From positions 1-64,000 of the forward strand of contig JAQTZZ010000006.1 in NCBI GenBank assembly GCA_028687545.1: a stretch of 64,000 nt of DNA. Reading direction: 5' to 3'. Both the position numbers and the translations under genes were made by a program. The DNA is from Candidatus Wallbacteria bacterium (lineage in GTDB: Bacteria; Muiribacteriota; JAQTZZ01). This document shows, in pieces, positions 26,280-45,961 of the stretch (its first letter is position 1; every line of letters begins with the position of its first letter). The notes below the pieces were generated by a model. That model had not been told where the DNA came from. It saw nothing but the letters and a program-made list of their open reading frames with translations, and ran no database searches.

Positions 26280-26309
26280 AGCTTCTTACAATTAATATTG
26301 TTAGAAGCT
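26280..26309. repeat. Palindromic repeat, family 1 copy b
   Basis: Arms AGCTTCTTACAAT and ATTGTTAGAAGCT, related to 14676-14709. Overlaps the last codons and stop of modE and lies between two convergent genes, so it may end both transcripts. Confidence 0.6.
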
Positions 26310-27110
26310 TCCTATTATCACGCTGGAAGCCTTGAACATGGCGGTTACGGCAGAGCCGGTCCTGATCCCAAGGTTTTTTACGCTCTCGTCAGTGATCGCT
26401 GCGGTGAGTGTATTTCCACCAGGCAGCTTTAAAATCACCTCTGAATTGACCCCGTCTGACATGATTTTCTCTACTATGCCCCGATAGATATTTCTGGCAC
26501 TGGTTTGGAAGTCTTCTTCAACAGTCAGGATCACCCAGGATGCTTTCACCAGGCCGCAGGCCTCATCTCCGATTTTAAGCCTCAGATTTTCCAGGCTCTG
26601 ATTGGTGATAGTGGCTGCGATGCTGTCCCCGCCCTTGAGTGAGAGGACTACCTCTGCATTCAAAGTGCCCTGCTTGATCAGGGAAACAGTGCCGTAAAAA
26701 AGATTCCGCGCACTGGTCTTTAAAAGCATTTTTCTGAAAAACTGATAAGATTCGTCGAAATCGTCGAGAGCGAGGCGCAGAAAATCCAGTAGTTTCTGCT
26801 GTTCGGTTTCAATCTGGCGGAACATGGTGACCATTTTAAGCCCCTTTCCCGTGAGCCTGGTTCCACCACCGCCTGAACCTCCGCTGGAACTTTCCACCAG
26901 TGGTTCGTCTGATAGATTATTGACCCTGTCGATGGTGTCCCAGGCGGTTTTATAACTGATGCCGGCAGCTTTAGCTGCCTTGGTAATCGAGCCACATTCT
27001 GCGATTTTTTCCAGGAGCAGTACAGAGGGATTACCCAGAAATTCATGATTATCTTTTTTCAGCTGCAGAGATGTCTTAAGAGAGATTTCATGATCCGTTT
27101 TCCGCTTCAT
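26301..27110 (-). CDS. modE: ModE-type molybdate/[19 protein letters not shown] regulator
   Basis: 269 residues. LysR-like winged helix at about 25-100 with ITKAAKAAGISYKTAWDTID and the Gly-rich wing SSSGGSGGGGTRL, then two MOP domains (132-196 and 203-267), each starting TSARN. This is the complete ModE layout: oxyanion binding in the MOP pair makes the dimer bind DNA. Last gene of the minus-strand operon DUF364-exbB-exbD-tonB-modE, 9 bases after tonB. ModE-like operators at 29601, 31780 and 36404 suggest autoregulation and control of the neighbouring operons. Confidence 0.96.
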   Translation of the reverse strand: MKRKTDHEISLKTSLQLKKDNHEFLGNPSVLLLEKIAECGSITKAAKAAGISYKTAWDTIDRVNNLSDEPLVESSSGGSGGGGTRLTGKGLKMVTMFRQIETEQQKLLDFLRLALDDFDESYQFFRKMLLKTSARNLFYGTVSLIKQGTLNAEVVLSLKGGDSIAATITNQSLENLRLKIGDEACGLVKASWVILTVEEDFQTSARNIYRGIVEKIMSDGVNSEVILKLPGGNTLTAAITDESVKNLGIRTGSAVTAMFKASSVIIGSF

Positions 27111-27119
27111 TGTCTATCC

Positions 27120-27848
27120 TCATTCGATTTTTTTGATCAAAACCGGCAGTCTGAGCGTAAGAAAATCCAGTGGCTTTCCTTCGAATTTTCGAAGTCTGCC
27201 TGACAGCGATCTGATCTTATCAGCTACTGCCTGATCCAGTTCGGACCGGCTTGAATTTCTGATGAAATGCAGGTTACCGAGCGTTCCGTCTGAACGGACT
27301 TCGAATTCAACTTCCAGGCGCTGGTCGCTGCGTACTGAAAACTCATAGTTGAGTTCCTGCACTGTCCTGGCTATCTCCCCCTGCACATAGGTGAGGTAAC
27401 TTTCCTTGAAGCTCAAGTATTCAGCATTTGAATCGTGACGATCGGCCTGAGGGGTAGTTGAAAGAATAGCGATACCTGCCTGCGCCGGTTTATCAGCAGG
27501 AGGCGGGACTGAGCTGAAAATTGATGCAACAGGAGTGGCAGGCTCTGAGTGCTTCTCAGGTTTTCTGACCTGTGCATCAGATTTTTTCCTGACTGGCAGT
27601 TTTTCAGGTTCATGGATCACCGGTTTTGGTTCAGGTGGTTTCGGCTCGGGCTTAAGTTCGGGTTTCGGAAGTGGCGGGGGTGGAGGAGGTGCAATCACTG
27701 CCGGAAGTGGCGCGGGAACTGGAACTCTTGCCACCATCAGGGAGATTCTGGATTGCAGCGGAAGACTGGATGATCCTTCGCAGATTGGATACTGCAGGGC
27801 CAGGGCATGCAGGGATAAAGAGATAGCCATTGCCGCTTTAAAATTCAT
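27120..27848 (-). CDS. tonB: TonB energy-transducing protein
   Basis: 242 residues: N-terminal signal anchor (AMAISLSLHALALQ), a long Pro/Lys/Glu-rich periplasm-spanning region (IAPPPPPPLPKPELKPEPK and following), and a C-terminal domain with VRSDGTLGNLHFIRNSSRS typical of TonB. It passes the energy of the ExbB/ExbD motor to outer-membrane receptors. Its place directly before modE and after exbD points to a TonB dedicated to molybdate, tungstate or a chelate of them; no receptor gene is in the window. Confidence 0.92.
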   Translation of the reverse strand: MNFKAAMAISLSLHALALQYPICEGSSSLPLQSRISLMVARVPVPAPLPAVIAPPPPPPLPKPELKPEPKPPEPKPVIHEPEKLPVRKKSDAQVRKPEKHSEPATPVASIFSSVPPPADKPAQAGIAILSTTPQADRHDSNAEYLSFKESYLTYVQGEIARTVQELNYEFSVRSDQRLEVEFEVRSDGTLGNLHFIRNSSRSELDQAVADKIRSLSGRLRKFEGKPLDFLTLRLPVLIKKIE

Positions 27849-27859
27849 TGTATATCAGG

Positions 27860-28249: not shown

Positions 28250-28250
28250 T

Positions 28251-28793
28251 TCAGTTCCGGTTAGAGAAAATTTTTCGGAGTCTGAGCAGAGCATCCCTGT
28301 TTTTCAGGTCAAAATACTGCAGCATGGCTGTAGCAGGGATTGCGATCAGGATGCCGGTGAAGGTGGTGACCAGTGCTTCCCAGATGCCTGTGGCAAGAAA
28401 GGACGGATCAGTATGATAGCCTGTGACTGAAATGGCGCGGAACATTTTGATGATTCCGGAGATGGTGCCCAGAAGACCGATCAAGGGAGCGGTACTGGCC
28501 GCAAAATAAAGCACTCCGAAATAACGGGTATTCTGGCGGTATTCATCTTCCCAGAAAATCTCCTCCTGTTCACTGTTCTTACATCCTCCTGCAGCGAAAT
28601 CCTGATATCTCTTCTGCCTTGTTTCTAGATGTCCTTTTTTAAGGGACTCGTCAAGATCGTGGTAACTGGTTTCCAGTCCCCTGAAATAGAAATAGCGCTC
28701 GATCATTACACAGACTGTTAAAACCGAGAGCGCGAGCATGGGGTACATGAAAACAGCCCCCATTTTCAGATAATCAAGGAATGTCATCTGCAT
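28251..28793 (-). CDS. exbB: ExbB/TolQ/MotA-type proton channel
   Basis: 180 residues, AGGGGA seven bases before the ATG. Three membrane helices: FMYPMLALSVLTVCVMIERY, then AASTAPLIGLLGTISGIIKM and WEALVTTFTGILIAIPATAM, the latter two with the classical ExbB Thr and Pro residues. Works with ExbD and TonB. Slightly short for the family because the cytoplasmic loop is reduced. Confidence 0.93.
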   Translation of the reverse strand: MQMTFLDYLKMGAVFMYPMLALSVLTVCVMIERYFYFRGLETSYHDLDESLKKGHLETRQKRYQDFAAGGCKNSEQEEIFWEDEYRQNTRYFGVLYFAASTAPLIGLLGTISGIIKMFRAISVTGYHTDPSFLATGIWEALVTTFTGILIAIPATAMLQYFDLKNRDALLRLRKIFSNRN

Positions 28794-28804
28794 TGAATTA
28801 TCCC

Positions 28805-29584
28805 CTAAATTTTTTTCAGGAATTTCTGCAGTTGCGGAGTCCGGGTCAGGCAGACTGTCTGAAATGTGCCTGCCGGAGCTCCGGGCAGGCCGCCGCCCCC
28901 GTGCTGATAATAATCCAGCACCTGGCGCTCGTCGGGAAGCAGCACTGAGCCGACCAAGTCAATCCCGAAATCAAAAAAAACATCGGAAAAAGGAACAGTC
29001 GGACCAAGCAGGATCCGGTACTTTGCATTCGGAGTCCGCCTGATCACTTCTTCGAAAGTACCGTTGACCAGGGTCAGGCCGGTCAAAAAGAGCAGTTCGG
29101 TTTTGGAAAGCAGTTGATGCGAATCGCTCCACAGAATGTCGCCTGGGCCTGGAGACAGTTCGACTATGTCGACAGGCAGGCCCTGGTCGCGCCAGCGCTC
29201 AGCCAGGGGAAAGTGGCCGATAAAAGCGGTTTTATGGCTTGCGGCAAGCTTTTCAAAGGCATCGATGGCATCGCCTTCAAAGTAGAGATCCGGCAGAGGA
29301 AGCGCGCTGCTGATGCAGGCCATGCCCAGTGAGGCCTTCAGGCAATTTCTGCTCTCAAGCATTTCCACTGCCACATCCCGCACTTTCCTTCCCACCAGTT
29401 CCTTCAGATAACAGCGGTGATGTGTCTGCGAGTCATCATCCAGTCCGGGCATGCCTGTGATCATGATCGCCATGCCCAGGCGTTTCGACTTTGCGAGCAC
29501 TGCATTTACGAATGTATAAAATTCCTTGAGTTTGATTTTAGGGTCGATCCGGCTGAGCAGGGCGTCGCGCAATTTACTGTCCAT
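28805..29584 (-). CDS. DUF364 protein (putative heavy-metal chelation domain)
   Basis: About 259 residues. The N-terminal half resembles DUF4213 (VEMLESRNCLKASLGMACIS) and the C-terminal half DUF364: FIGHFPLAERWRDQG, VDIVELSPGPGDI, LTGLTLVNGTFEEVIRR, LLGPTVPFSDVFFDFGID. These proteins often lie beside metal or metal-chelate ABC transporters and radical SAM genes in anaerobes. Start: an ATG at 29596 overlaps a GGAG that serves the ATG at 29584, so 29584 is chosen. It is the first gene of the ModE operon, with the operator 17 bases upstream. Confidence 0.85.
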   Translation of the reverse strand: MDSKLRDALLSRIDPKIKLKEFYTFVNAVLAKSKRLGMAIMITGMPGLDDDSQTHHRCYLKELVGRKVRDVAVEMLESRNCLKASLGMACISSALPLPDLYFEGDAIDAFEKLAASHKTAFIGHFPLAERWRDQGLPVDIVELSPGPGDILWSDSHQLLSKTELLFLTGLTLVNGTFEEVIRRTPNAKYRILLGPTVPFSDVFFDFGIDLVGSVLLPDERQVLDYYQHGGGGLPGAPAGTFQTVCLTRTPQLQKFLKKI

Positions 29585-29600
29585 GATATTCTCCATTTAG

Positions 29601-29642
29601 CGTTATATAATGATTTATATCACAAAGCCAGTGGACTGTAAA
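29601..29642 (-). promoter_or_regulatory. ModE-like operator on the DUF364-exbBD-tonB-modE promoter
   Basis: Minus-strand promoter TTTACA (29642-29637), 17-base spacer, TATAAA (29619-29614). Over the -10 region lies CGT-TATAT-N7-TATAT (29601-29620), which fits the TATAT-N7-TAYAT rule for ModE. The ribosome site and ATG follow directly, so bound regulator would block initiation. Confidence 0.75.
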
Positions 29643-30700: not shown

Positions 30701-30797
30701 GCCATACCTCCAATATAAGCCATGCATGTTGAATTGATGCAAACCTTCTTGGCAAAGCATATCATATCTTTGGAAGTAACTTAAAGTGGAGGACTGA

Positions 30798-31757: not shown

Positions 31758-31803
31758 TTGTAACAATTTCCCAGTTGTGCGCTATATATTAATATATAAA
31801 ACG
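31758..31803 (+). promoter_or_regulatory. Promoter with ModE-like operator before the fused permease
   Basis: TTGTAACAATT (31758-31768) as -35 region, then CGC-TATAT-N7-TATAA (31780-31799) covering the expected -10 region and containing a 16-bp perfect palindrome (31783-31798). The -35 region is identical to that at 36383. The end of cysK overlaps the upstream edge. Confidence 0.7.
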
Positions 31804-31818
31804 AAAACGGGTGACAAT

Positions 31819-33051: not shown

Positions 33052-33065
33052 TTCTGGAGGACACT

Positions 33066-34010
33066 TTGTTTCACAAATTATTTAACGAACCTTTCCTGCC
33101 TGTGATGGGAAGCTGGATCGACGGCCTGCCTGTAGTGCTTGTTTTTCTGATCATGCTGATCGGAATGCAATGTCTTCTTCAGCTTAAGCCTTCCAAACTC
33201 CTGCGCATGAGGAGGTACATTCAGGCTGCGTCTCTACTGGTGTTCGTTTTTTTTGTCTACGAGTGCCTCTGCGTGATGCGTCTCGCCATGTTCGGGTTGA
33301 CTGAGATCGGACGTGATGATCTGCTTTCATTCGCGCATCTCAGTATATTCGCAGTTGTCGGCGGTTTCGCCTTTTTATCCGGACGGCTTTTCTGCAGCTT
33401 CGTCTGCCCGCTTGGATTTCTTCAGGAGATCGGCAACCGGATCACACCGGTAAAAACGAATCGGGCAAAGCGCTGTCTGCTGGGACTGCTTCTTGTTTCA
33501 GCTCTTTGCATCCTGTACAAAACTTTGCCCAGCAATGAATTCGCTGTGGAATATGTAACAGCTATCTTTGCACTGATCATGCTCTTCAACATTCTCCTGG
33601 CTTTGCTGAAACCTGAATGGGAGCCGGCACTTTTGAAATTCAGATTCGTATCCCTGATCATATACGGACTTTTAAGCGCTTCCAGCGTTTATTTCAGCGA
33701 TGCCTGGTGCCCTCTTTATGGATTTGAAATTGATGCTTCTTCGATCATTTCCATCAACATCGTGATTTTCAGCTCTTTCCTGGTGACAGCCCCCTGGTGC
33801 AGATTCATGTGCCCGACCGGACTGTTTCTGGCCCTGATCGGCCGCCAGGCCTTATTTCAGATTGAATTGAATCCAGCCGGGCTTTCAGCTGCCGGTCGCA
33901 GTTCCTGCCCGGAAGCCGCGATCAGCAGAGACTGTATCGACCGATTACTCTGCATCAACTGCGGCACTTGCAAGGCTACCTGCGGATCTTCTTTTGGTGC
34001 TTCGCGATGA
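33066..34010 (+). CDS. NapH-like membrane protein with Fe-S motifs
   Basis: About 314 residues from the TTG at 33066, which has GGAGG five bases upstream; an earlier TTG at 33048 overlaps the permease stop. Six to seven helices with two CxxxCP motifs, CSFVCPLGF and CRFMCPTGL, diagnostic of the NapH/CcoG/NosR membrane ferredoxin family, and a C-terminal CINCGTCKATC cluster site. Likely carries electrons across or at the membrane. Only one complete C-terminal cluster motif is seen, whereas NapH has two. Overlaps the next gene by 4 bases. Confidence 0.8.
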   Translation: MFHKLFNEPFLPVMGSWIDGLPVVLVFLIMLIGMQCLLQLKPSKLLRMRRYIQAASLLVFVFFVYECLCVMRLAMFGLTEIGRDDLLSFAHLSIFAVVGGFAFLSGRLFCSFVCPLGFLQEIGNRITPVKTNRAKRCLLGLLLVSALCILYKTLPSNEFAVEYVTAIFALIMLFNILLALLKPEWEPALLKFRFVSLIIYGLLSASSVYFSDAWCPLYGFEIDASSIISINIVIFSSFLVTAPWCRFMCPTGLFLALIGRQALFQIELNPAGLSAAGRSSCPEAAISRDCIDRLLCINCGTCKATCGSSFGASR

Positions 34011-35311
34011 AGCCGCTTTGCTGTCTTTTTTCATTGCTTTTCTTTTTGATCACGGCAGATCACACCGCCTTTGCGACTTCAGAGACCAATCTGGAATGGG
34101 TGATGGCCGGCGGAGACTCAGGGCGGAGCTATTGTTCAGACCTCAATTTGAACAGCCTCAATCAGCTCTGGACTTTCACCCTCGATTCCCATGTCTGGGA
34201 ATACAGGCAGAAAATGAGCGTCTGGTCCGAGTCGGCAGTTGCAGGCAATCCGGATGGAAACCTGCGGATATTCATCGGCTCCTATGATCATAATCTCTAT
34301 TGCATTGATGCAAAAGACGGCAGGGAAATCTGGCGCTATACTACCGGAGCTGCGATCAATTCCAGTCCGCTTTATTTCAGGTTAAACGGCAAAGCTTTTG
34401 TGCTGGCCGTGTCTACAGACAGGGTGGTTTACTGCCTGGATGCTTTAAGCGGAAAACCGGCCTGGACTCGCGAGATTTATCCCTGGAGTTTTACAGTATA
34501 TGACGCAGTGACATCTTCACCGGTATTGGCGGAGTCCGGAGGAATGCAAAGAATCATCCTGACTATCTGGTATTCGGACAAAAAGATGTTCAAACCAGTG
34601 CAGAAAAGCGAAGTTCTCAGCCTGGAACCTTCAACAGGTGTAATAATCTGGAGAAAGACTCTGGGAATGATGAATGTTTTTTCCCCTGTTTCAGCTGTAA
34701 TCAATGGACAGGACAAACTTTTTGTGACTTCAGCGGATGGAAACCTTTTCTGCCTGTCGCAGGATTCCGGAGAAGTCCTCTGGAAATTCACTACATCATT
34801 GCAGATAACCTCTGCACCGGTAGTTTCGGAACTGGGGACTAAGGTTTATTTCGGCACAATGTTCGGGGTTTATTATGCGATCGACGCAGTCAAAGGGAAG
34901 GAAAAGTGGAAAGACAAGCTGGGCATGAACATCGTCTATCCCGGCAGTCTGGATCAAAGCAGCAAAACAGTGATAGTTCCTGATTTCGACAGAAACATCT
35001 ATGCCATCGAGACGGACGGCGGAAAAATTCTCTGGAAATTCCGCTGCGGAAAGTACAATTCCTCTTCCCCGGTGATTTTCAAATACAAAAACAGGCAGGT
35101 TGTGCTGGTCGCATCTTTAGACAACCTGCTCTACCTGCTGGACCTGAAAACAGGAGATAAACTATGGGAATTCAGCCTCGGGGGCAAGCTCTGGTCATAC
35201 GATACCAGGGGGCAGACTCTCTGGCCATCACCTCTTGTCTGCAGAACTAACGGCAGGGGTCTGCTGGTAGTTCCCTGGTATGACGGAAAGGTTTATGCAT
35301 TCGGGGAATGA
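34007..35311 (+). CDS. Exported PQQ-like beta-propeller protein
   Basis: 434 residues, signal peptide (CCLFSLLFFLITADHTAFA). At least six PQQ-type blades are recognisable by their ends: ALSGKPAWT, PSTGVIIW, DSGEVLWKF, AVKGKEKWK, TDGGKILWKF and LKTGDKLWEF. No PQQ-dehydrogenase cofactor residues were identified, so it may be a scaffold or sensor rather than an enzyme. Coupled by ATGA to the NapH-like gene, third in the operon started by the ModE-controlled promoter. Could be the periplasmic partner of the NapH-like protein. Confidence 0.82.
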   Translation: MKPLCCLFSLLFFLITADHTAFATSETNLEWVMAGGDSGRSYCSDLNLNSLNQLWTFTLDSHVWEYRQKMSVWSESAVAGNPDGNLRIFIGSYDHNLYCIDAKDGREIWRYTTGAAINSSPLYFRLNGKAFVLAVSTDRVVYCLDALSGKPAWTREIYPWSFTVYDAVTSSPVLAESGGMQRIILTIWYSDKKMFKPVQKSEVLSLEPSTGVIIWRKTLGMMNVFSPVSAVINGQDKLFVTSADGNLFCLSQDSGEVLWKFTTSLQITSAPVVSELGTKVYFGTMFGVYYAIDAVKGKEKWKDKLGMNIVYPGSLDQSSKTVIVPDFDRNIYAIETDGGKILWKFRCGKYNSSSPVIFKYKNRQVVLVASLDNLLYLLDLKTGDKLWEFSLGGKLWSYDTRGQTLWPSPLVCRTNGRGLLVVPWYDGKVYAFGE

Positions 35312-35335: not shown

Positions 35336-36292
35336 TCAGTCTCCGCAGTATTTCAGAAGTTCAGCCGGGATTTTCGTTTTATCGCTTGGAATGCAGGGTC
35401 TGAAAGGGTTCTGATGATTGCGTTCGATGATCTGTTTTCCCTCATCAGACAATAAAAATTCCATGAACATCAGGGCCAGTTTTGGGTTGGAGGCACTTTT
35501 GGGAATTGTGGCGGCATAGCTGATCTCAGTACCTTTCATGATTGAAATTGTGTCTGGAGTTTTTCCGGTGATTTCAATCGTTGCGCAGGCATAGAATTCA
35601 TTGAATTTAGAAGAACCAAGATTGATCTCATCCGGCAGATTCAGATATTTCAGCTTGTGCTGCATGGCTATTGATTCATACAAGAAGGCATAATCCAATG
35701 CGTAATTCTGAAGAAGCGCTACAAGTTCGATACTCATCGGTCTGATATTGGCGGCAGGACAGTTCCGGGAAAGCGCTTCTGATAGTTTTCCTTTGACCTG
35801 TTCTTTATAGTAATTGTCCGCAAGCTTCCAGCAGAGAATAGCTCTATATCCGTCAGGGTCAAGATTCTGATCCGAGTGTCCGACTTTGATTTCCGCAGAT
35901 GTGAGAACTGACAGCCAGTTTTGCTCAGTTATCTCTGAACCGAATTTTGAATGTTCGGTATATGCGATCACCATCCGGTTGCCGGCAAAAATAACGTACC
36001 AGTCAGATTCGTTCGGCATCAGCAGATCTTCGATCACCAGGTAATCGGCGGAGAGGATGAGATCTGCCTTCCTTTTGAGTTGAAGCACTTTCCAGCAGCA
36101 GGCGCGGCTGCCGGAAGCTTCAGTGTTGACTTTGAGACCTGGGTTTTCCAGCTGGAACTTCTCGACAAGGTCTTTCATCGGCCTGGCCAGACTTCCGGCA
36201 TAGAAAATGGTCAGAGACGGTTCTGGACTGCCGCAGCCGGTGAGCAGCGCAAGAATCAGGAAAGTCAAAAAACGGGTGTGCAGATGTTTCAT
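35336..36292 (-). CDS. wtpA: Tungstate/molybdate-binding lipoprotein, WtpA type
   Basis: 318 residues. Lipoprotein signal LILALLTGC with Cys20. Core motifs match WtpA: IFYAGSLARP, TEASGSRACCW, LILSADYLVIEDLLMP, DWYVIFAGNRMVIAYT and DQNLDPDGYRA. WtpA binds tungstate or molybdate with very high affinity as six-coordinate oxyanion and hands it to WtpB/WtpC. It is on the opposite strand from all permeases and is the only binding protein of its kind in the window. A TATAAT at 36328-36323 on the minus strand is a plausible -10. Confidence 0.93.
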   Translation of the reverse strand: MKHLHTRFLTFLILALLTGCGSPEPSLTIFYAGSLARPMKDLVEKFQLENPGLKVNTEASGSRACCWKVLQLKRKADLILSADYLVIEDLLMPNESDWYVIFAGNRMVIAYTEHSKFGSEITEQNWLSVLTSAEIKVGHSDQNLDPDGYRAILCWKLADNYYKEQVKGKLSEALSRNCPAANIRPMSIELVALLQNYALDYAFLYESIAMQHKLKYLNLPDEINLGSSKFNEFYACATIEITGKTPDTISIMKGTEISYAATIPKSASNPKLALMFMEFLLSDEGKQIIERNHQNPFRPCIPSDKTKIPAELLKYCGD

Positions 36293-36382: not shown

Positions 36383-36427
36383 TTGTAACAATTATCGGCC
36401 CTTCGTTATATAATATATTATAGAACG
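36383..36427 (+). promoter_or_regulatory. Promoter with ModE-like operator before the radical SAM operon
   Basis: TTGTAACAATT (36383-36393) as -35 region and CGT-TATAT-N7-TATAG (36404-36423) over the -10 region. The 24 bases 36404-36427 form a palindrome with a single mismatched pair. It lies between divergent wtpA and the radical SAM gene and could affect both. Confidence 0.75.
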
Positions 36428-36434
36428 GTTTGCT

Positions 36435-36500
36435 GTGAAACTCGATAACGATAAATTTAAGATGTTCATGGAACAGCCGCTGAACGGAGTGAATGGATGA
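36435..36500 (+). CDS. Possible 21-residue leader or precursor peptide
   Basis: A GTG-started frame MKLDNDKFKMFMEQPLNGVN plus a final Gly. It begins just after the ModE-like operator and its TGA overlaps the radical SAM ATG as ATGA, the same coupling used by other genes in this operon. No good ribosome site precedes the GTG. It could be a regulatory leader, a radical SAM substrate peptide, or chance. Confidence 0.3.
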   Translation: MKLDNDKFKMFMEQPLNGVNG

Positions 36501-37504
36501 GATGTAATTATTGCGAATGGCGTTGTGATCTCAGCGCAGGGCAAGCCGGCGTGTGCAGGATGTACCGCGAAGAACAGGGAGCAGTCAAAGAGCGTTTTCC
36601 CATGCAGTGGAGCGCTTGTTCGGTTTCAAGGATGGAGTCCATGCCTTTTTATCACGCCCATCCTGACAGCCGGACTCTGACCATCGGAACATATGGCTGC
36701 AATTTCAGCTGCCGTTATTGTTCAAATGCCCATGTCGCCCGTCGTGACCCTTTAGAATTCAAAGCTGAAATGAACGGAATGGCTCCTGAAGAACTGATCC
36801 GCATGGCCTTGAAACACGGGTGCCAGAACATCGTCTTTAATGTGAATGAGCCGGCAATGTCGCTGCAGAGCTTGTTGAAGCTGAAACAAAATGCAGACCA
36901 GGCCGGCCTGCCGATGGGTTGCCTCACCAATGCCTATACCACTGAGGAGTCGACTGAGATACTGGCAGCGATTTTTTCCTTTCTCAATATAGGCCTTAAA
37001 GGCTTTTCTGCGGAATTTCATCGCAATTACATTGGAATTGGAAGCATTGATCCCATCCTGCGAAACATCAGCAGGCTTGCAAAAATCAGGCACATTGAAG
37101 TAACTACACCCGTGATTGAGGGTGTCAATGATTCTGAGCTGGGTGCAATTTCAGAATTTATAGCAGGCATTGATCCGGATATTCCATGGCATGTTTTCCG
37201 ACTCCTGCCTGAACATGAGATGAAAAGTGTTGCATATCCCAGTATTGAAAGGATCAATCAGTTGCTTCAGACAGCACGTAAAAAACTGTCATATGTGTAT
37301 TTCCACAATTTTGTAGGTTCGGACTGGGTCAATACGGTTTGTCCGGATTGTGGCACCAGAGTGATTGAACGCTTCAGTTTGGGTTGCGGAGGCGACAGGA
37401 TGGACAAGTTTTTGTGCAAAGAAGGCAATCAATGCCCATCCTGCGGACGCAGGATAAAAATTCACGGCAGGCCGTATCAAACTGATGTTAAGGAGGCAAC
37501 ATGA
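36497..37504 (+). CDS. Radical SAM protein with N- and C-terminal Cys clusters
   Basis: 335 residues, GGAG upstream. N-terminal Cys3-x2-Cys6-x3-Cys10 with Cys20, then the radical SAM site CNFSCRYC (Cys68, Cys72, Cys75), then SAM-domain features (NVNEPAMS, GLKGFSAEF, TPVIEG). The C-terminus carries a zinc-ribbon-like pair CPDCGTRV and CPSCGRRI. It resembles the activase-like group found with AmmeMemo-type proteins. The reaction is unknown. First full gene of the ModE-controlled operon, coupled by ATGA to the next gene. Confidence 0.88.
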   Translation: MRCNYCEWRCDLSAGQAGVCRMYREEQGAVKERFPMQWSACSVSRMESMPFYHAHPDSRTLTIGTYGCNFSCRYCSNAHVARRDPLEFKAEMNGMAPEELIRMALKHGCQNIVFNVNEPAMSLQSLLKLKQNADQAGLPMGCLTNAYTTEESTEILAAIFSFLNIGLKGFSAEFHRNYIGIGSIDPILRNISRLAKIRHIEVTTPVIEGVNDSELGAISEFIAGIDPDIPWHVFRLLPEHEMKSVAYPSIERINQLLQTARKKLSYVYFHNFVGSDWVNTVCPDCGTRVIERFSLGCGGDRMDKFLCKEGNQCPSCGRRIKIHGRPYQTDVKEAT

Positions 37505-38652
37505 GCATAGTGATTGTTGATGCAAGAGAATGGCAGAACATGCTTGACCTGAAGACAGGGGAAAAAATTCAGGTGGAAAACTATTCTACGGAAATATTGC
37601 GCGGGGTGCTGCAGAGGCACCATTATCCAGGGGATGTGGATCAATTGAGCAACCGCTGGGTCAGCGAAACTGCTCTGGACCTGATCGGACAATATCATCC
37701 GCAGCTGGTCTGCCTGATGTACAGCAGGCAGTATTTTATCAGCCGCTTCAATCCCTTGTCTGAAACGGAAAGAATCCGCCTGCTGGAAGAAGTTTTCAGT
37801 GAAGTTGAATTTATGCTCGCACAATCCGGATACACACCTGTCATAGTCGGCACAGGCAATCTGACTGAGCACATAGCCGAACTGGACCTCAACGGACTGG
37901 ATGGGCTGGCTATTTCCGGCAACTGGTCTGCGCGTTATGCAGGCCTGCATAAACCGACTCCAAAAGATCTGGCATACTTGTCAACTCTACCTGAGATTGA
38001 ACGCATTGCAGCCAGACAGGAATTGATTGATCTTTTCCCCGGAGCCGAATGCATTCTGGAGCGTATTCCTGAGTATCTTCTGGTGGCAAAAGAAGGTTTT
38101 ACTTTCAGAACTTCAGGCACTCCTGGACGTAAAATTTACCGAGTACCGGGCATCTCTTATCAGATTCCTGTGGCAACCCCGCTTGGAAATGTTGAAACAA
38201 TTACCGGTCTGCGCAAACTGGTAAGGGACAATCTGAAAGACCATAAAATAGCTTTGATCATTCTGGAGGGAATCGGGGAGCAGGATTTCAGGACGCCATA
38301 TTCAGCATCTAAAAACTCGATGGGCTGGTATTATTATGAACCAGGTGAAAATCAGCTGCTCACAATGTCTACAGGCACACAGCAGGTCTTTGCTTTTCCC
38401 AATGGATACAATTATCTGGAAGAAAACGATAACAAGGAATTTCCATTTTCCGGCTACTTCAAGAAAATCCCGGCCGGCACGATTGCTGAAGACTCCGGCT
38501 TCAGAAGCATTGCTGTGGGAAATCACAGCATGCATACGCATATGGTATTTGGAGCTGACATCTGCGTGGAATGCTTTGCCCGCAATCTTTACAATCAAGG
38601 GTGCATGGGCGTGATCCACAGGACAGCTGAAATTCAGCAGGAAAACCATTGA
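37501..38652 (+). CDS. Unknown protein coupled to the radical SAM enzyme
   Basis: 383 residues, not recognised. No signal peptide or membrane helices. Notable segments: HHYPGDVDQLSNRWVSETAL, MYSRQYFISRFNPL, IVGTGNLTEHIAELDLNGLD, GLAISGNW, IILEGIGEQDF and, near the end, GNHSMHTHMVFGADICVECF. The His/Cys/Asp-rich last stretch and the Gly-rich strands suggest a metal-dependent enzyme, perhaps alkaline-phosphatase-like, but I cannot support a family. ATGA overlap with the radical SAM gene implies a shared pathway. Confidence 0.75.
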   Translation: MSIVIVDAREWQNMLDLKTGEKIQVENYSTEILRGVLQRHHYPGDVDQLSNRWVSETALDLIGQYHPQLVCLMYSRQYFISRFNPLSETERIRLLEEVFSEVEFMLAQSGYTPVIVGTGNLTEHIAELDLNGLDGLAISGNWSARYAGLHKPTPKDLAYLSTLPEIERIAARQELIDLFPGAECILERIPEYLLVAKEGFTFRTSGTPGRKIYRVPGISYQIPVATPLGNVETITGLRKLVRDNLKDHKIALIILEGIGEQDFRTPYSASKNSMGWYYYEPGENQLLTMSTGTQQVFAFPNGYNYLEENDNKEFPFSGYFKKIPAGTIAEDSGFRSIAVGNHSMHTHMVFGADICVECFARNLYNQGCMGVIHRTAEIQQENH

Positions 38653-38712
38653 GCAGCCTTAATTAGAAATGAAAATCCGGTTTGAATACTTAATAATCTG
38701 AAATGGACAAAG

Positions 38713-40047
38713 ATGATCAAGTTAAAAAATTTATCTCTTTATCTTGATGGAAAAACCAGGAATCTGGAGATTTCTGAACTGGAAGTCCAACCAGGTGATT
38801 TCTGGTATCTGGCAGGCAGGAACGGCAGCGGCAAAACCACGTTGCTGGAATATCTGGGTGGCCTTTCGACTTGCTATCCACAGGCACGCTTTGAAGCGGA
38901 ATCAACGGAAAACAGCTATAAAAAGAGCTTTGTAGTATTGCAGAACATTGATTCTCCTTTTTTCTATGACACAGTTGCCAATGAACTTTCCCACAGCCTG
39001 ATCCAGCAGGGCGGTGAAGATTCCACTCAGGCTCTCACGACTTGGGCTGAGAAAATCGGACTGAAAGATAAACTGGAGCTTCCGGTGCGCACACTCTCGG
39101 CTGGTGAAAAACAGAGACTGATCCTTGGCATTGCTCTTATTTCACGGCCTGACCTTTTACTGCTGGATGAACCTACCGCTCATCTGGATTCGCTGGGCAG
39201 CGATCTGGCGCTCGGAATTTTCAGGGAATTCCAAATCCAGGGCGGAACGATGATGATCACAGACCATAAAACACGCGAAATCAAGGGTCAGCAAGGTCAT
39301 TTTCTGGGACTGGAAAAAGGTGGGGTAGTATCTTCTTGCGTCTGGAATGGAAATACGATCAATTCCGCTCTGATTGAGCGATTCGGGCTTTATCCTGATC
39401 AGCATGCGGGTTCGGCTGGCAATCGTGAGCAGGGAGAATCTGTAATCAAGCTTGAGTCTTTCGGGATCTGTTTTGAAAACGGCAATCAGCTTTTTCAGGA
39501 TGTCAATCTTGAGCTGAAAAGGGGACAATGGATTCATCTCTCCGGACTGAATGGGACAGGCAAGACTACCCTGATCAACCTGATTCTGGGTCGGATAAAG
39601 CAATCCGCCGGCACGATTTGCAGGAAACCCGGATTAAAATTCGGTTATCTTCCGCAGAATTTCCGTTATTTCGCTCAGTGTGACACATTCGCTGAGGAAA
39701 TTGAGTTTATAAAAAAAAGGAACATCAACAGCCTGAACAGTGATGATCTGATTGAAACGCTCGGGCTGAAACATCTGCTTGAGCGGGATCCCTTGTACCT
39801 GTCAAGGGGTGAATCTCAAAGGGTTTTTCTATTTCTGGCGCTGCTTTCGCGGCCTGATGTGCTGATCCTGGATGAGCCTGCCTCAGGCCAGGATTTTCAA
39901 AGCCTGACCGCCATGATGGGCGTTCTGGATAGAATGGTAGCCCAAGGAATGGCGCTGATACTGGTGAGCCATGAAGACTGGCTTGGTTCATACGCGGATA
40001 CGGTCTGGGAGATAAAGGAGAAAAAAATATGTTCAGATTCACGCTGA
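38713..40047 (+). CDS. ECF transporter energy-coupling ATPase, two fused ABC domains
   Basis: 444 residues with two complete cassettes. First: GRNGSGKTT, LSAGEKQRLILG, LLLLDEPTAHLD. Second: GLNGTGKTT, LSRGESQRVFLF, LILDEPASGQD. Tandem ATPases of this size with a following CbiQ-type gene are the EcfA-EcfA' fusion of energy-coupling-factor importers. Overlaps the next gene by 19 bases. Together with 40029 and 40683 it makes a full ECF importer. Confidence 0.88.
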   Translation: MIKLKNLSLYLDGKTRNLEISELEVQPGDFWYLAGRNGSGKTTLLEYLGGLSTCYPQARFEAESTENSYKKSFVVLQNIDSPFFYDTVANELSHSLIQQGGEDSTQALTTWAEKIGLKDKLELPVRTLSAGEKQRLILGIALISRPDLLLLDEPTAHLDSLGSDLALGIFREFQIQGGTMMITDHKTREIKGQQGHFLGLEKGGVVSSCVWNGNTINSALIERFGLYPDQHAGSAGNREQGESVIKLESFGICFENGNQLFQDVNLELKRGQWIHLSGLNGTGKTTLINLILGRIKQSAGTICRKPGLKFGYLPQNFRYFAQCDTFAEEIEFIKKRNINSLNSDDLIETLGLKHLLERDPLYLSRGESQRVFLFLALLSRPDVLILDEPASGQDFQSLTAMMGVLDRMVAQGMALILVSHEDWLGSYADTVWEIKEKKICSDSR

Positions 40048-40673
40048 GAGAAACTGTCCTGATCGGTGTAATGGGCGGAGTCTGGGGTTTTCTGGAACTG
40101 ACCCTGGGCATGGTGTTGCATAATTTCCGGGTCCCTTACCGGGGGATTCTCCTCGCTTCGCTGGGATTTTTCGTGATGCTGACTCTGAAGCGCCTGGTGC
40201 CTCGCTTTGGCAGCATTCTGCTGGCCGGTCTGATAGCAGTAGCCATCAAGCTGCTGGCAGCCAATGCCATGATCGCCAACATCATGCTGGCGATTTATCT
40301 GGAAGCCATCGGCTGGGAATTCATCTGCCATTTTCTGCGGAAGCGGAGCTTGCTGTTAACTATTTTCGGAGGAATTTACACTGGCTTTGTCTGTTCCTCT
40401 TTTTTTATTATAGGGATGATGCTGTTTTCAGGCATGAAGTGGGAACAGGTGTATAAAATGTACAGAAGTCAGGCTGAATTTTTTACCTCCTACATGCCTC
40501 AAGGCATGGACCCTGTGGTGGTCTATCTGATCTTTGAATCGATGCTGGCTCTGGTTTTTGTAAGCATAGCCGTGCGCTCAAGCGACCGGCTGATCAAACG
40601 CTTTACGAGGTTCTCAGGTGTGCCTCTAACAAAATGTTCACCCGAGACAGAGCATGATATCAACATTTTGTAA
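40029..40673 (+). CDS. Putative ECF substrate-binding (S) component
   Basis: 214 residues, GGAG upstream, five or six hydrophobic segments (VMGGVWGFLELTLGMVL, ILLAGLIAVAIKLLAANAM, LTIFGGIYTGFVCSSFFIIG). Size, helix count and position between the ATPase and T genes fit an S component; no known vitamin-specific motif was recognised, so the ligand is open. Given the ModE-like operator and radical SAM gene upstream, a Mo/W ligand, a cofactor precursor or the product of that enzyme are candidates. Confidence 0.7.
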   Translation: MFRFTLRETVLIGVMGGVWGFLELTLGMVLHNFRVPYRGILLASLGFFVMLTLKRLVPRFGSILLAGLIAVAIKLLAANAMIANIMLAIYLEAIGWEFICHFLRKRSLLLTIFGGIYTGFVCSSFFIIGMMLFSGMKWEQVYKMYRSQAEFFTSYMPQGMDPVVVYLIFESMLALVFVSIAVRSSDRLIKRFTRFSGVPLTKCSPETEHDINIL

Positions 40674-40682
40674 GAGGCTCTC

Positions 40683-41420
40683 ATGAAAAAGCTGCATCCA
40701 TTTAGCTCTCTGGCTCTGATTTTTTCCCTGATCCTGCTGGGAAGATTTGAGAATGTCATGCACGCTCTCTGCCTGTCAGGCATTTACTGGTTTTTTTCCT
40801 GGTACCTGATCAGGGAAAGAATCTGGAAAGTGCTCAATAAAGGTCTGATTATTCCATTGTTGATTTTTTCCCTGTTCTATATTCTGCTGACATCTGAACC
40901 GCCCTATTTGTTTCAGTCCGGCTGGCTCAGAGTCGGACGGACAGCAATTGTTCAGGCTTTCATGATGACAGTGAGGATGCTGACATTTCTGGTGATGGTG
41001 CTGACCATGATTCAAAAAAGCGACCGCACTGACTGGATGAATCTGATGCTGAAATTCGGGCCTCAGAAATCCGGGCTGATGTTCGGAGTCGCATTCAACC
41101 TGCTGCCTGTGCTGCAATCCACATTCGAGGAATTTTACTGGTATCTGAAGACCAATGCTTTCGGTAAATTTGAGATCATGAGAATGATTGTTCGATTTCC
41201 CTATGTTCTTTTGACCTACAGCCTTGTCCATGCCGAGGATATTTATAAATCAGCCTATGCCCGCGGATTTCAGCATGGTTTTCCGATCAAGCGAAAACCG
41301 CTTACACCTGACAAATGGAATCTGACTCTGATCCTGTTCCTGCTGGCAGTGAATCTCTCTGCTCTGACTCTTGGCTGGGATAAGCTTCCCCCAATCGCTC
41401 ACTTTACCTATACACCGTGA
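40683..41420 (+). CDS. ECF transporter T component, CbiQ family
   Basis: 245 residues, membrane protein with the coupling-helix motif SAYARGFQHG typical of EcfT/CbiQ, and KFGPQKSGLMFGVAFNL upstream of it. It links the two ATPase domains to the S component. Nine bases after the S gene. Confidence 0.85.
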   Translation: MKKLHPFSSLALIFSLILLGRFENVMHALCLSGIYWFFSWYLIRERIWKVLNKGLIIPLLIFSLFYILLTSEPPYLFQSGWLRVGRTAIVQAFMMTVRMLTFLVMVLTMIQKSDRTDWMNLMLKFGPQKSGLMFGVAFNLLPVLQSTFEEFYWYLKTNAFGKFEIMRMIVRFPYVLLTYSLVHAEDIYKSAYARGFQHGFPIKRKPLTPDKWNLTLILFLLAVNLSALTLGWDKLPPIAHFTYTP

Positions 41421-41465
41421 AGACCTAAAACCTGAAGTGCTATAATTAGCATGGAGAAAAACGAA

Positions 41466-42257
41466 ATGCGGCCTAAAACAATCGATCCTTTTTACCTGAT
41501 GTTTTCCCTGCTGGGAGGGATTGTACTGCTGTTCGTCGTGGCACCGCTCGCAGGGATGTTCTGGAATGTATCTCCTGCAGATTTAAATGGAGCGCTGATC
41601 GATTCTGAAGTGCAGAGCAGCATCTTTCTGACGGTATTTTCATCCATGGCAGCTACCCTGATCTTTGCGATTCCGGCGATCCCGCTCGCCTATCTGCTGG
41701 CCAGATTCAAATTTCCGTTGAAACGGCTGGTGACTGGAATCATTGAAATGCCTGTAGTGATACCCCATTCAGCTGCAGGTATCGCCCTGCTCGGCATGCT
41801 CACGCGGGACACTCTGCTTGGGAAAACCGCCGGGTTTTTCGGCCTGCAGTTCGTGGGCGGAGCGCTTGGAATTATGATGGCGATGGCTTTTGTGAGCCTT
41901 CCTTTTCTAATCAATGCGGCACGCGACGGTTTTGCGGCTGTTCCGGAGCGGCTGGAAAAAGCTGCTCTAAACCTTGGCGCATCGAGGCTTCGAGTGTTTT
42001 TTACCATCGCACTGCCACTGGCGCTGAGGTCCATCATTTCCGGCCTGATTCTGATGTTCGGCCGCGGCATGAGCGAATTCGGCGCGGTAGTGATCATCAC
42101 CTATCACCCCATGATCACTCCGATCCTGATCTACGAAAGATTTGGAGCTTTCGGCCTGAAATACGCCCGGCCTGTGGCTGTGCTTTTTATCATGATCTGC
42201 CTGGTATTCTTCATACTGCTGAGACTGATTTCGAGGGAAAAAGATGGAGACACTTAA
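41466..42257 (+). CDS. Tungstate/molybdate ABC permease (WtpB/ModB type), set 1
   Basis: About 263 residues. The first ATG (41451) overlaps a GGAG that suits the ATG at 41466 better. Permease hallmarks: IEMPVVIPHSAAGIALLGM and the EAA-like loop EKAALNLGASRLRVFFTIAL, end FGRGMSEFGAVVIITYHP, as in WtpB. A TATAAT hexamer lies at 41441, so some transcription may start here, but the gap to the ECF T gene is only 45 bases. Overlaps its ATPase by 14 bases. Confidence 0.9.
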   Translation: MRPKTIDPFYLMFSLLGGIVLLFVVAPLAGMFWNVSPADLNGALIDSEVQSSIFLTVFSSMAATLIFAIPAIPLAYLLARFKFPLKRLVTGIIEMPVVIPHSAAGIALLGMLTRDTLLGKTAGFFGLQFVGGALGIMMAMAFVSLPFLINAARDGFAAVPERLEKAALNLGASRLRVFFTIALPLALRSIISGLILMFGRGMSEFGAVVIITYHPMITPILIYERFGAFGLKYARPVAVLFIMICLVFFILLRLISREKDGDT

Positions 42258-43335
42258 TCCAAATCATTGTGCAAAATGCGCCCTGCTGAAGGTTGAAAAG
42301 CTTTCTAAAAAATTCCCGGATTTTTTTCTGGACAATGTTTCCTTTGAAATACAGGAAGGTGAATATTTCATTCTTCTCGGACCGTCAGGGGTAGGAAAAA
42401 CTGTCCTGCTGGAATTGATCACAGGACTCAGCACCCCTGATTCCGGACGGATTTTCCTGGATGATTGCGAAATCACAAACACTGGAATCCAGGAGCGCAG
42501 GATCGGAATGGTATATCAGGATCAGATGCTGTTTCCGCATCTGACTGTGAAGCAGAATATTGCCTATGGTTTGAACAGCCGTCACCAGCCCCGTGAAGAG
42601 ACAGGCAGAACAGTGGCAGAACTCGCTGATCAGCTGGGTGTTTCAACTCTGCTGGACCGCCTGCCTGAGTCATTATCAGGCGGCGAACGCCAGAGAGTGG
42701 CTTTAGCGAGAGTCCTGGCGATAAAGCCCCGCTGCCTGCTGCTGGATGAACCCCTGTCAGCGCTTGACCCCGGCTCCCGCAGCGAGCTGCGGCGGATTCT
42801 GCGGAAAATTCATCAGGCTGGTAATACAATCGTGCATGTCACACATGATTATGAGGAAGCAGTTTCTCTGGCTCAGAGGATCGCAGTGATGGATGAAGGG
42901 AGAATCATCCAGACCGATCTGCCGGAAGAGGTTTTCCTGCATCCCAGATCCGCCTTTGTAGCCAGATTCGTGGGAATCAGGAATTTTTATCACGGGGAGC
43001 TTAAGGGCCAAAGCAGTGAAATAAGGGAATTCCAGACCTGCGGAAAGACAATTCATCTTACCACAGTGGAATGTGATGGGCCTGGTTTTATCATGATCGC
43101 TTCCAGTGAGGTCACGCTTTCCAGTAACAGACCTGACTCCAGCGCCAGAAATGTCTTTGAAGGTGTGATCATCGACATCGCTCCGGTTCTGTCAGGAATC
43201 GAAGTGATGGTGGAGGCGGGATTCAGGATTTCTGCTCTGATCACAAGGAGCGCCAGAGAAGAAATGCATCTTTCCAATGGGGCGAAAGTCTGGGTAAGCA
43301 TCAAGGCAACTGCTGTCAAATATTATCCCCAGTAA
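42244..43335 (+). CDS. Tungstate/molybdate ABC ATPase with MOP-type C-terminus, set 1
   Basis: 363 residues. ATPase: GPSGVGKT, LSGGERQRVALARVL, LLLDEPLSALD, VTHDYEEA. The last 70 residues (SARNVFEGVIIDIAPVLSG, ISALITRSAREE, VSIKATAVKYY) form a TOBE/MOP domain, which binds oxyanion and can shut the transporter when metal is abundant. An unusual 10-residue N-terminal extension contains HCAKC. Partner of the permease just before it. Confidence 0.92.
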   Translation: METLNPNHCAKCALLKVEKLSKKFPDFFLDNVSFEIQEGEYFILLGPSGVGKTVLLELITGLSTPDSGRIFLDDCEITNTGIQERRIGMVYQDQMLFPHLTVKQNIAYGLNSRHQPREETGRTVAELADQLGVSTLLDRLPESLSGGERQRVALARVLAIKPRCLLLDEPLSALDPGSRSELRRILRKIHQAGNTIVHVTHDYEEAVSLAQRIAVMDEGRIIQTDLPEEVFLHPRSAFVARFVGIRNFYHGELKGQSSEIREFQTCGKTIHLTTVECDGPGFIMIASSEVTLSSNRPDSSARNVFEGVIIDIAPVLSGIEVMVEAGFRISALITRSAREEMHLSNGAKVWVSIKATAVKYYPQ

Positions 43336-43384: not shown

Positions 43385-43401
43385 GCGATATATAAGATAT
43401 G
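43385..43401 (+). promoter_or_regulatory. Weak ModE-like half-site before permease set 2
   Basis: GCGATATATAAGATATG resembles one half of the operators at 29601, 31780 and 36404, with TTGTCA 20 or so bases upstream. The second half-site is not evident. The permease ATG lies inside it, so any transcript from here would be nearly leaderless. Confidence 0.3.
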
Positions 43402-44181
43402 AAGGCAATCTCAGATCTGGACCGTTTTGAAGTTTTCTGCTGGTTTTTCACCTTTCTGGCGATTTTTTTTCTGGCCGGTCCGGTGATGGCTCTGTTTGTC
43501 TCCTTAAAACCTGCTTTTTTCTATCAGGACGCCTTTGATCCTGAAATCTGGGAGTCCTTGAGACTCACCTTGTTTTCAGGGTTTGTTTCGTCGATTTTTG
43601 GAGTGCTGACTGGCATTCCCATGGCTTATGTCCTCTCGATATCCTCCCGGAAAGTCAGGACGATCGTTGAACCTTTGATTGAAATTCCAATCATACTTCC
43701 GCCAGTGATTGCAGGAATTTCTCTGGTCTGTTTTCTTTCTCCAGACTTCGTTGTCGGAAATGCCTTTTCCAGAATCGGGATCCATTTCATCAGTTCGATT
43801 TACGGCATCATCGCAGGCATGTACTTCGTCGGTGTGCCTTTCATCGTAAAAACAAGTCTGGCTGCCTTCCAGGAGATCGACTCCAGAGTGGTTAAAACTG
43901 CGAGATGCCTTGGAGCGTCAGGTTTTAGAGCATTCATGACCGTAATACTTCCGCTTTCCGCACCACAGGTGTTTACAGGATTCATACTGATGCTGGGCAG
44001 GAGCATCGGGATCTTCGGGACAGTGGTATTGATAGCGTATAATCCTAAAACAATTCCGGTTCTGGCTTACGACCGTTTTCTCTCCTCAGGCATGGAATCA
44101 GCCAAGACTCCTGCCGTCATCCTGGTCCTGCTCTCTTTCGTGTTCTATGCGATGAGAAGATTGACGATCGGCGGGAAATGA
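43399..44181 (+). CDS. Tungstate/molybdate-type ABC permease, set 2
   Basis: 260 residues. IEIPIILPPVIAGISLVCFL and the EAA-like loop VKTARCLGASGFRAFMTVIL, end RSIGIFGTVVLIAYNPK, are typical of the ModB/WtpB/TupB group. No Shine-Dalgarno precedes the ATG. One base separates it from its ATPase gene. The existence of two closely spaced permease-ATPase pairs suggests separate molybdate and tungstate routes or a different oxyanion. Confidence 0.88.
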   Translation: MKAISDLDRFEVFCWFFTFLAIFFLAGPVMALFVSLKPAFFYQDAFDPEIWESLRLTLFSGFVSSIFGVLTGIPMAYVLSISSRKVRTIVEPLIEIPIILPPVIAGISLVCFLSPDFVVGNAFSRIGIHFISSIYGIIAGMYFVGVPFIVKTSLAAFQEIDSRVVKTARCLGASGFRAFMTVILPLSAPQVFTGFILMLGRSIGIFGTVVLIAYNPKTIPVLAYDRFLSSGMESAKTPAVILVLLSFVFYAMRRLTIGGK

Positions 44182-44182
44182 T

Positions 44183-45202
44183 ATGCTTAGAGTAAGCGGC
44201 CTGACTTCTTCTCTCTCTGATTTCAGCCTGGCAGTGGATGAGCTTGAAATCCAGGGCTCCACATATTTTGTGCTGATGGGTCCGTCCGGAGCCGGAAAAA
44301 CTCTGCTCTGCGAATGCCTGACAGGATTCAGGGCAATGGATGCCGGCAGGGTTGAACTGTATCAGCGTGAAATCACCTGCCTGAAGCCCGAAGAAAGAGG
44401 AATTTCTCTAGTCCATCAGGAACACTGCCTGTTCCGCCATCTGGATGTTTTTGAAAATGTGGCTTACGGACTCCGCTGCAGAAGAGTCTCTCAAGCGGAA
44501 ATTAACAGGACCGTCAACGGGATACTGGAAAAAATCGGGATCCCGCAATTAGCCAGGCGCAGGATGGAAGAGCTTTCCGGAGGTGAGCGCCAGAGAGTGG
44601 CCCTGGCCAGGGCAGTCGCGGTGAAACCAAAGTTGCTGATCATGGATGAACCGCTGAATTCGCTGGATATCATGTCCAAGCGTGGAATGATGGACCTGCT
44701 GCTTTCGCTGAAGAGTGAGTTCAATCATGTGACGCTTCACGTCAGTCACGATCTGGAAGAAGCTTTGTATCTTGGCGACAGGATCGGACTCCTGCTGAAC
44801 GGGAAACTGGTCCAGACAGGCGAAACCGGTGCAGTGGTTCTCAAACCTGCCACCATTGAGGCAGCTCAGTTTTTCGGCATTGAAAACATCTACCGGGTCA
44901 CAGGAAAAGGAGGAGGCGGGGTAGCTCTCAGTGAGGGATTTGCCTTTTTGGTTGATTTCCCGGACAGAAACTTCAAGTATTGCTGCATTCATTCAGAATT
45001 GCCGAGGCTCTATCGGGAGCAGAGTACTGACGGATCCAGATATCCGGGAACTGTAAAAGCAATCAGAAAAAGCGGCAAGCAATGGATAGTCAAGATCGAT
45101 CTTGGGATGGAATTGACAGTCAGACTGTACCATGACCCTGCTGAATATTGTTCAGGCAAGGTTTTCGTGCAGTTCCCGGATGAAGCGATTCATTTTATCT
45201 GA
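44183..45202 (+). CDS. Oxyanion-type ABC ATPase, set 2
   Basis: 339 residues: GPSGAGKT, LSGGERQRVALARAV, LIMDEPLNSLD, VSHDLEEA. The C-terminal 100 residues look like a diverged TOBE domain (YPGTVKAIRKSGKQWIVKID). Compared with set 1 the MOP-like SARN motif is absent, so oxyanion feedback may be lost. Partner of the permease at 43399. Confidence 0.88.
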   Translation: MLRVSGLTSSLSDFSLAVDELEIQGSTYFVLMGPSGAGKTLLCECLTGFRAMDAGRVELYQREITCLKPEERGISLVHQEHCLFRHLDVFENVAYGLRCRRVSQAEINRTVNGILEKIGIPQLARRRMEELSGGERQRVALARAVAVKPKLLIMDEPLNSLDIMSKRGMMDLLLSLKSEFNHVTLHVSHDLEEALYLGDRIGLLLNGKLVQTGETGAVVLKPATIEAAQFFGIENIYRVTGKGGGGVALSEGFAFLVDFPDRNFKYCCIHSELPRLYREQSTDGSRYPGTVKAIRKSGKQWIVKIDLGMELTVRLYHDPAEYCSGKVFVQFPDEAIHFI

Positions 45203-45286
45203 CACTTCGGATCCAGCTGAAGGTCCGCTCATCCGGTTGTGCAACAAAAGGCAGGATGCCGGGTAATAGATACTCAGGAGGTATTG

Positions 45287-45946
45287 ATGAAATTATCGGT
45301 CCTGATCTGCCTTTTAGGATTCAGTGCAGTTTTCGCCTGTCCGGCCTTTACTCTCAAGGATTCCACATACAATGATATCAAACGGGCCTCGTCAAAACTC
45401 TTTTTCGGGCTCGTGGCTGAGATCAACAAGTTCGAGGATACCGGCACAGGGGAAACAGAAACTCTGAAAACCCGCTGGGACGGTATTTCACTGATCTGGG
45501 TCCAGTTCCAGACCAGGCTGGAGAATTGGCTGAACATGATTCCTGCGAACCTCGGCAGGGAAGAATGGATCAAGGCATTGAACGATTTTCAAAGACGGAT
45601 CAGCGATGTGAGGAAACAGATCCGCTCGGGAAGTGTTGAAGTGGCCCTTTCAGACATGGCTGAGATCAAGATTGAACTTCTGCTGTTTTTCCACTACAAT
45701 TTCCTGGATGCCGCTAAAAACTCAGCCGTGAATGGTGACAAGGCGTTACTGAAAGAAACCATCTCAGACATCACCTGGCTGAAAAATCTGCCTCCCTCTG
45801 TACAGGAATTTCAGAAGCGGATCAGTGAACTTTACAACAATTTCGACGATACTCACCGGAAAGAATTCATCGAATGGAAAGAAAAGATGAAAGTGCAGCT
45901 CAAAAAAGACTTGAGTGAATATTTTGAAAAGAACAGCTGGTATTAG
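45287..45946 (+). CDS. Exported helical protein of unknown function
   Basis: 219 residues from the ATG at 45287 (AGGAGG seven bases upstream). Signal peptide MKLSVLICLLGFSAVFACPA, perhaps lipidated at Cys18. The mature part is almost all helical and charged (ISLIWVQFQTRLENWLNMIP, RRISDVRKQIRSGSVEVAL, KMKVQLKKDLSEYFEKNSWY). It sits between two ATPase genes, where a binding protein would be expected, but does not look like a periplasmic oxyanion-binding fold. Confidence 0.7.
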   Translation: MKLSVLICLLGFSAVFACPAFTLKDSTYNDIKRASSKLFFGLVAEINKFEDTGTGETETLKTRWDGISLIWVQFQTRLENWLNMIPANLGREEWIKALNDFQRRISDVRKQIRSGSVEVALSDMAEIKIELLLFFHYNFLDAAKNSAVNGDKALLKETISDITWLKNLPPSVQEFQKRISELYNNFDDTHRKEFIEWKEKMKVQLKKDLSEYFEKNSWY

Positions 45947-45961
45947 CGGAGGTGCCTGCTT

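Follow-up and report, generated by a model that had tools for sequence, protein, structure and literature searches.

Why should a radical SAM enzyme, a protein of 383 residues without recognizable relatives and an ECF importer be encoded together behind a ModE-type operator, immediately ahead of genes for tungstate and molybdate uptake? The question is raised by a stretch of 64,000 nucleotides from a Candidatus Wallbacteria bacterium (the window), in which a first-pass annotation had described such a module, with an ATGA overlap between the first two genes and a direct run into wtpBC. Every element of this layout was recovered in place, the ATGA coupling is exact and is also kept in other genomes, and the same predicted regulon takes in the operon at 26301–29596 and a receptor gene on another contig, both absent from that annotation. 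The features of the window are listed in Table 1. The explanation that we favour, with moderate confidence, is ModE-controlled acquisition of a molybdenum or tungsten (Mo/W) chelate, in which the radical SAM enzyme and the 383-residue protein would form a two-subunit enzyme acting on the ligand in the cytoplasm.

Table 1. Genes and predicted operators of the molybdenum/tungsten-related region of the window
Feature	Coordinates	Strand	Remarks
ModE regulator	26301..27110	-	TIGR00637 domain and two Mop domains
TonB-like protein	27120..27848	-	just under Pfam cut-offs
ExbD-like protein, 144 aa	27860..28294	-	called from sequence inspection and position alone
ExbB	28251..28793	-	above cut-off
DUF364/DUF4213 protein	28805..29596	-	
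ModE-type operator	29601..29624	.	precedes DUF364-ExbB-ExbD-TonB-ModE operon
ModE-type operator	31780..31803	.	precedes operon for WtpB-like permease, Fe-S protein and beta-propeller protein (31849-35311)
WtpA binding protein	35336..36292	-	TIGR03730, 261.4 bits, cut-off 242.75; divergent from radical SAM operon
ModE-type operator	36404..36427	.	between wtpA (-) and radical SAM operon (+); shared by both
Radical SAM enzyme, 335 aa	36497..37504	+	CxxxCxxC; extra N- and C-terminal Cys clusters
383-aa orphan protein	37501..38652	+	near-obligate radical SAM partner; ATGA overlap; natural fusions
ECF A component, 444 aa	38713..40047	+	two fused ABC ATPase domains in one protein
Putative ECF S component, 214 aa	40029..40673	+	without Pfam, NCBIfam or PDB family
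ECF T component	40683..41420	+	CbiQ-like, weak match by itself
WtpB-like tungstate/molybdate permease	41451..42257	+	begins 30 bases past T gene
WtpC-like ATPase	42244..43335	+	
Second wtpB-wtpC pair	43399..45202	+	

The ModE of the window passes both models for this regulator (TIGR00637, 100.4 bits, cut-off 98.5; TIGR00638, 146.7 bits, cut-off 55), and its gene is the last of the 26–29.6 kb operon. A second WtpA model (NF003196) scores 301.7 of 355, under its cut-off; WtpB and WtpC are the best-scoring families for the permease and ATPase genes but lie under cut-off (269 of 340 and 372 of 440 bits). Other parts of this region are unusual in their own right. At 31780–35311 a ModE site is followed by genes for a Wtp-like permease, extended at its N terminus by a further membrane segment, for a NapH-like Fe-S membrane protein and for a beta-propeller protein, a curious combination for Mo control; at 29888–31754 an XdhC/CoxI gene (minus strand) and a cysteine-synthase-like gene (plus strand) overlap within the Mo island; and at 43399–46600 the second wtpB-wtpC pair is followed by a protein of 235 residues that has no family and by an isolated ABC ATPase.

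The operator ahead of the radical SAM gene, CGTTATATAATATATTATAGAACG, forms an inverted repeat of 12 bases with a single mismatch, differs at one position from the E. coli ModE core CGNTATATA-N6-TATATANCG and agrees with the consensus that has been applied to ModE sites in Geobacter (PMC2700814, PMC545781); no comparable site was present in shuffled window sequence. It overlaps the best -10-like hexamers in both directions and therefore could also control wtpA. When the whole 4.54 Mb genome was searched with the E. coli core, allowing up to two mismatches, four sites were obtained, against one for the reversed pattern used as control, and all four front the system: the radical SAM operon, the DUF364-ExbB-ExbD-TonB-ModE operon, the Wtp-like permease operon and a TonB-dependent receptor gene. 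This fourth site is on the other contig (C1), 18 bases ahead of the likely start of the receptor gene. We predict from these matches that ModE binds the four operators and controls the system, and the receptor, ExbB (above cut-off) and TonB (just under cut-off) would fall in one ModE regulon. The receptor has a Plug domain, is one of two TonB-dependent receptors found in the genome, and is encoded near a double Mop-domain protein; the genome also gave two hits to the tungsten/molybdenum aldehyde oxidoreductase family. A putative secreted protein without Pfam match is encoded divergently from the receptor gene (L118, 10073–11077).

The 383-residue protein has no relative in Pfam, NCBIfam or PDB, and profile searches of these three collections with 29 members of its family gave nothing convincing; scattered weak matches of three members to oxaloacetate decarboxylase models were taken as noise. 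Fold prediction from four sequences reached a pLDDT of 38. The family shares a C-terminal stretch, S..VGN.SM..H...G......ECF.RN..N.G, with invariant His, Glu, Cys and Arg residues, as would be expected for an enzyme or a metal site. In the loci that we examined in detail, the radical SAM gene lies upstream of the 383 gene in 32 of 33, the overlap is exactly four bases in 29 of these 32, and in six genomes the two are fused into one polypeptide of about 670 residues. This order, the four-base overlap and the fusions make it very likely that the two proteins function jointly. The natural fusions (L096–L101) lack the N-terminal Cys cluster of the stand-alone radical SAM enzyme and adjoin an NTPase_1-like gene and a binding protein gene. 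In another genome (L071, G349) the 383-family gene is in two reading frames, possibly a pseudogene or an assembly error.

The radical SAM enzyme itself matches PF04055 (62.2 bits, cut-off 29.5) with a conserved CNFSCRYC motif; it has an N-terminal cluster, CxxCxxxC...C, and its C-terminal CxxC pairs are conserved among relatives. Its nearest named family is the AmmeMemoRadiSam radical SAM enzyme (TIGR04337; 144.1 bits, cut-off 220, E 5e-42). No match to the MEMO or AMMECR1 partner was found in the 383-residue family or in neighbouring window genes, and the idea that the 383-residue protein is a hidden MEMO/AMMECR1 was rejected at the sequence level. Two radical SAM paralogues (L003, 10859–12616; L055, 425–2251) carry a C-terminal PF01497-like chelate-binding domain (E 5e-10 and 3e-17, respectively), and the paralogue protein starts right at the Cys motif, without evident signal peptide.

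A search of 84,980 genomes with the single 383-residue query returned three relatives, in a Deltaproteobacteria MAG, a Desulfuromonadales MAG and Sporomusa acidovorans. Profile searches raised the total to about 40 genomes: in the Sporomusa class 15 of 381 carry the family, in the Desulfuromonadales class 18 of 277, two of these matches being weak or partial, and in a third class 8 of 42. Within the phylum of the window, none of the 39 further genomes (40 with the window's own) yielded a member, and the distribution of the family is therefore patchy. No family match occurred in plasmids or viral contigs, and in a tree the window's copy groups with that of the Deltaproteobacteria MAG. In a neighbourhood survey of 42 loci of the family, a PF01497 chelate-binding protein is encoded at 35, a FecCD permease at 31, a TonB receptor at 25, FmdE and ExbB at 17 each and DUF364 at 14.

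In the model that we favour, scarcity of Mo or W would cause ModE to leave its operators, and three layers of uptake would be made: the TonB-dependent outer-membrane receptor with ExbB-ExbD-TonB, the ECF importer (two-domain A, S and T) for the chelate or its ligand, and the Wtp importers for the free oxyanion, the window operon supplying the inner-membrane and cytoplasmic part. In anaerobic haem-uptake loci a radical SAM enzyme opens the imported haem; similarly, the two subunits together might open or remodel the imported ligand in the cytoplasm, so that the metal would be freed without oxygen. We infer the metal complex, the reaction and the direction it takes, as well as the ligand of S, from gene order, the predicted regulon, the coupling of the pair, the fusions and the chelate importers. 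Our slight leaning towards breakdown or remodelling of the ligand for metal release comes from the chelate-binding domain of the radical SAM paralogues, from the finding that no exporter family recurs among the shared neighbours of the pair, and from the fact that no scaffold-building enzymes were seen there.

These same observations count against the close rival, ligand synthesis by the pair. Here the two proteins, together with DUF364 and a varying set of methyltransferases, would start from a common metabolite (e.g. a precursor of pterins or flavins) and turn it into a Mo/W chelator for secretion, to be re-imported by the receptor and by ECF or FecCD importers. We consider this possible but rather unlikely, and it stays a close rival because methyltransferases of three kinds recur near the pair (in 7–8 of the 42 loci each) and because DUF364 proteins, with their Mo/W transport neighbours, are proposed to make pterin- or flavin-like metal chelators in the passages of PMC2954201 devoted to them. 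DUF364 also lies within the predicted regulon here, and both it and the methyltransferases, which recur beside the pair, are better suited to synthesis than to breakdown. The first-pass annotation had suggested synthesis or uptake of a small molecule tied to Mo/W, and this is partly supported: such small-molecule chemistry agrees with chelate import of the TonB and ECF types, with synthesis and a pterin as possibilities.

That the metal of this system is Mo or W is strongly supported by the modE gene and predicted regulon of this genome and, in remote relatives, by modABCDE with nifHDK, MOT1, Mo/W riboswitches and ModE-like sites. Markers specific for these metals (ModABDE, MOT1, Mo/W riboswitches, ModE sites and nifHDK) are present at 13 of the 42 loci. 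The richest locus is L061, where modE, modD, modA, modB, modC and nifHDK all lie within 10 kb of the pair, all models being over cut-off except the longest ModE and ModB models. The others include two modA genes, modB, modD and a PBP-like regulator in L053, ModE in L059 and L065, ModD in L064 and L066, MOT1 in L093, Mo/W riboswitches in L048 (two), L052 and L065 (two), and a PBP-like regulator in L054. ModE-like sites precede the pair in L056 and an ExbB-ExbD-rSAM-383-DUF364-FmdE-receptor operon in L062; shuffled sequence of three times the size contained none with two or fewer mismatches. Behind a Mo/W riboswitch, both L048 (16900–18851) and L052 (508–2456) encode a protein of 98–99 residues and one of 538 residues without Pfam match.

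Wide occurrence of the 383-residue protein without Mo/W genes would, according to the first-pass annotation, have spoken against a role linked to these metals; 29 of the 42 loci indeed have no such genes in view, so that the metal could differ among lineages, yet the protein is nearly always beside metal-chelate importers. It is improbable that the system as a whole is meant for a different metal chelate or cofactor (corrinoid, cobalt, nickel or iron), with Mo/W genes nearby for other reasons. Uptake of B12 and of siderophores typically involves FecCD/PF01497 importers and TonB receptors, most loci carry no Mo/W marker, and the best-named relatives of the receptor are B12 and haem receptors; these matches are far under cut-off, however, the best NCBIfam one, to the B12 receptor family, scoring 89 bits against a cut-off of 600. 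Moreover, the four ModE sites of the genome all belong to the system, and Mo/W riboswitches are present in three loci compared with no cobalamin riboswitch in the 40 scanned. A cobalamin system in particular is disfavoured, both by the lack of this riboswitch and by the wrong regulator.

Even less probable is a role of the pair in modifying some protein or bound cofactor, for instance in the maturation of a Mo/W enzyme, unconnected with any imported ligand. In favour of such a role, the radical SAM enzyme comes closest to the AmmeMemoRadiSam enzyme and to glycyl-radical activases, and at L053 a 383-family member (9796–10938) stands beside modABCD-like genes alone, without an adjacent radical SAM gene, which also counts against the chelate-processing model; the only radical SAM paralogue of that genome is distant and located elsewhere. 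Against such a modifying role, the recurrent neighbours of the pair are importers, not Mo/W enzymes or Moco genes.

The ECF importer accompanies the pair in the window, in L054 and in L056. In the A component, PF00005 is found in two stretches of the 444 residues. The T component matches CbiQ in NCBIfam with an E of 0.054, and its counterparts in L054 and L056 are above the PF02361 cut-off. A known vitamin family for S would have undermined the first-pass proposal: none was found for the window S, which is hydrophobic and helical, has no match to PF09819, NCBIfam or PDB, and gave a model of pLDDT 55 without fold match. The S profile match between L056 and L054 has a probability of 74%, and the L054 counterpart matches PF09819 (YkoE-type; 40.1 bits, cut-off 25.2). 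In L054 the order S-T-methyltransferase-receptor-TonB-A-A-rSAM-383-regulator places a complete path in one run, and ECF and FecCD importers appear to be interchangeable inner-membrane steps for a receptor-delivered ligand. The L054 match and a fused two-domain ATPase that resembles YkoD (PMC5037267) are what could be said for import of thiamine or its pyrimidine, with the pair as a salvage enzyme and incidental co-transcription of wtpBC, a reading that we regard as very unlikely given the unmatched window S, the absence of any riboswitch in the window and of TPP riboswitches in the 40 scanned loci, and the FecCD-type importers, not ECF, at most loci.

Known Mo uptake is mainly by oxyanion importers, and the Mo-binding metallophores known to us are catecholates of aerobic nitrogen fixers. 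More tentatively than the chelate-uptake model itself, we suggest that the present genes could be a new anaerobic Mo/W metallophore system, in which a radical SAM enzyme and a new partner enzyme family would build or dismantle the ligand, and a ModE-controlled TonB receptor and a chelate-specific ECF importer would take it up. If true, this would help to explain the Mo and W supply of anaerobes in sulfidic settings (in the L061 relative, the pair is less than 10 kb from nifHDK), would give a context to DUF364 and FmdE proteins, and would provide a new radical SAM reaction open to testing.

Parts of this picture have been noted before. DUF364 (PF04016) is described beside Mo/W and other metal importers, as here, in PMC2954201, whose passages on these neighbourhoods do not mention the radical SAM-383 pair, the ECF importer or the ModE-controlled receptor. 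In Pelobacter carbinolicus, TonB receptors near molybdopterin-binding proteins and Mo riboswitches were suggested to act in metal transport (PMC3543383); the window adds the enzyme pair, the ECF importer and ModE sites, which the part of that paper concerned with these receptors does not name. Our search of the open-access literature turned up no account of the pair, of a ModE regulon that includes an ECF importer, or of these genes in company with a receptor under ModE control. The radical SAM enzyme aligns over nearly its full length with the AmmeMemoRadiSam enzyme (TIGR04337) and shares its N-terminal and central Cys patterns, but it is under the cut-off of that family and its partner is the 383-residue protein without family. 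The importer is like those of the YkoEDC type (group I) in that its own S and T are encoded together with a fused two-domain A, but it is preceded by a ModE operator instead of a TPP riboswitch and is linked to a TonB receptor and Mo/W genes. In gene content rather than in sequence, a parallel may be drawn with anaerobic haem uptake and opening loci of the ChuW/HutW type, which likewise combine a receptor, TonB/ExbBD, an importer and a radical SAM enzyme for a metal complex. The window differs from these loci in its radical SAM family, in the additional 383-residue partner and in its predicted regulation by Mo/W, and we regard the system as a probable variant of metal-chelate uptake built around a new protein family.
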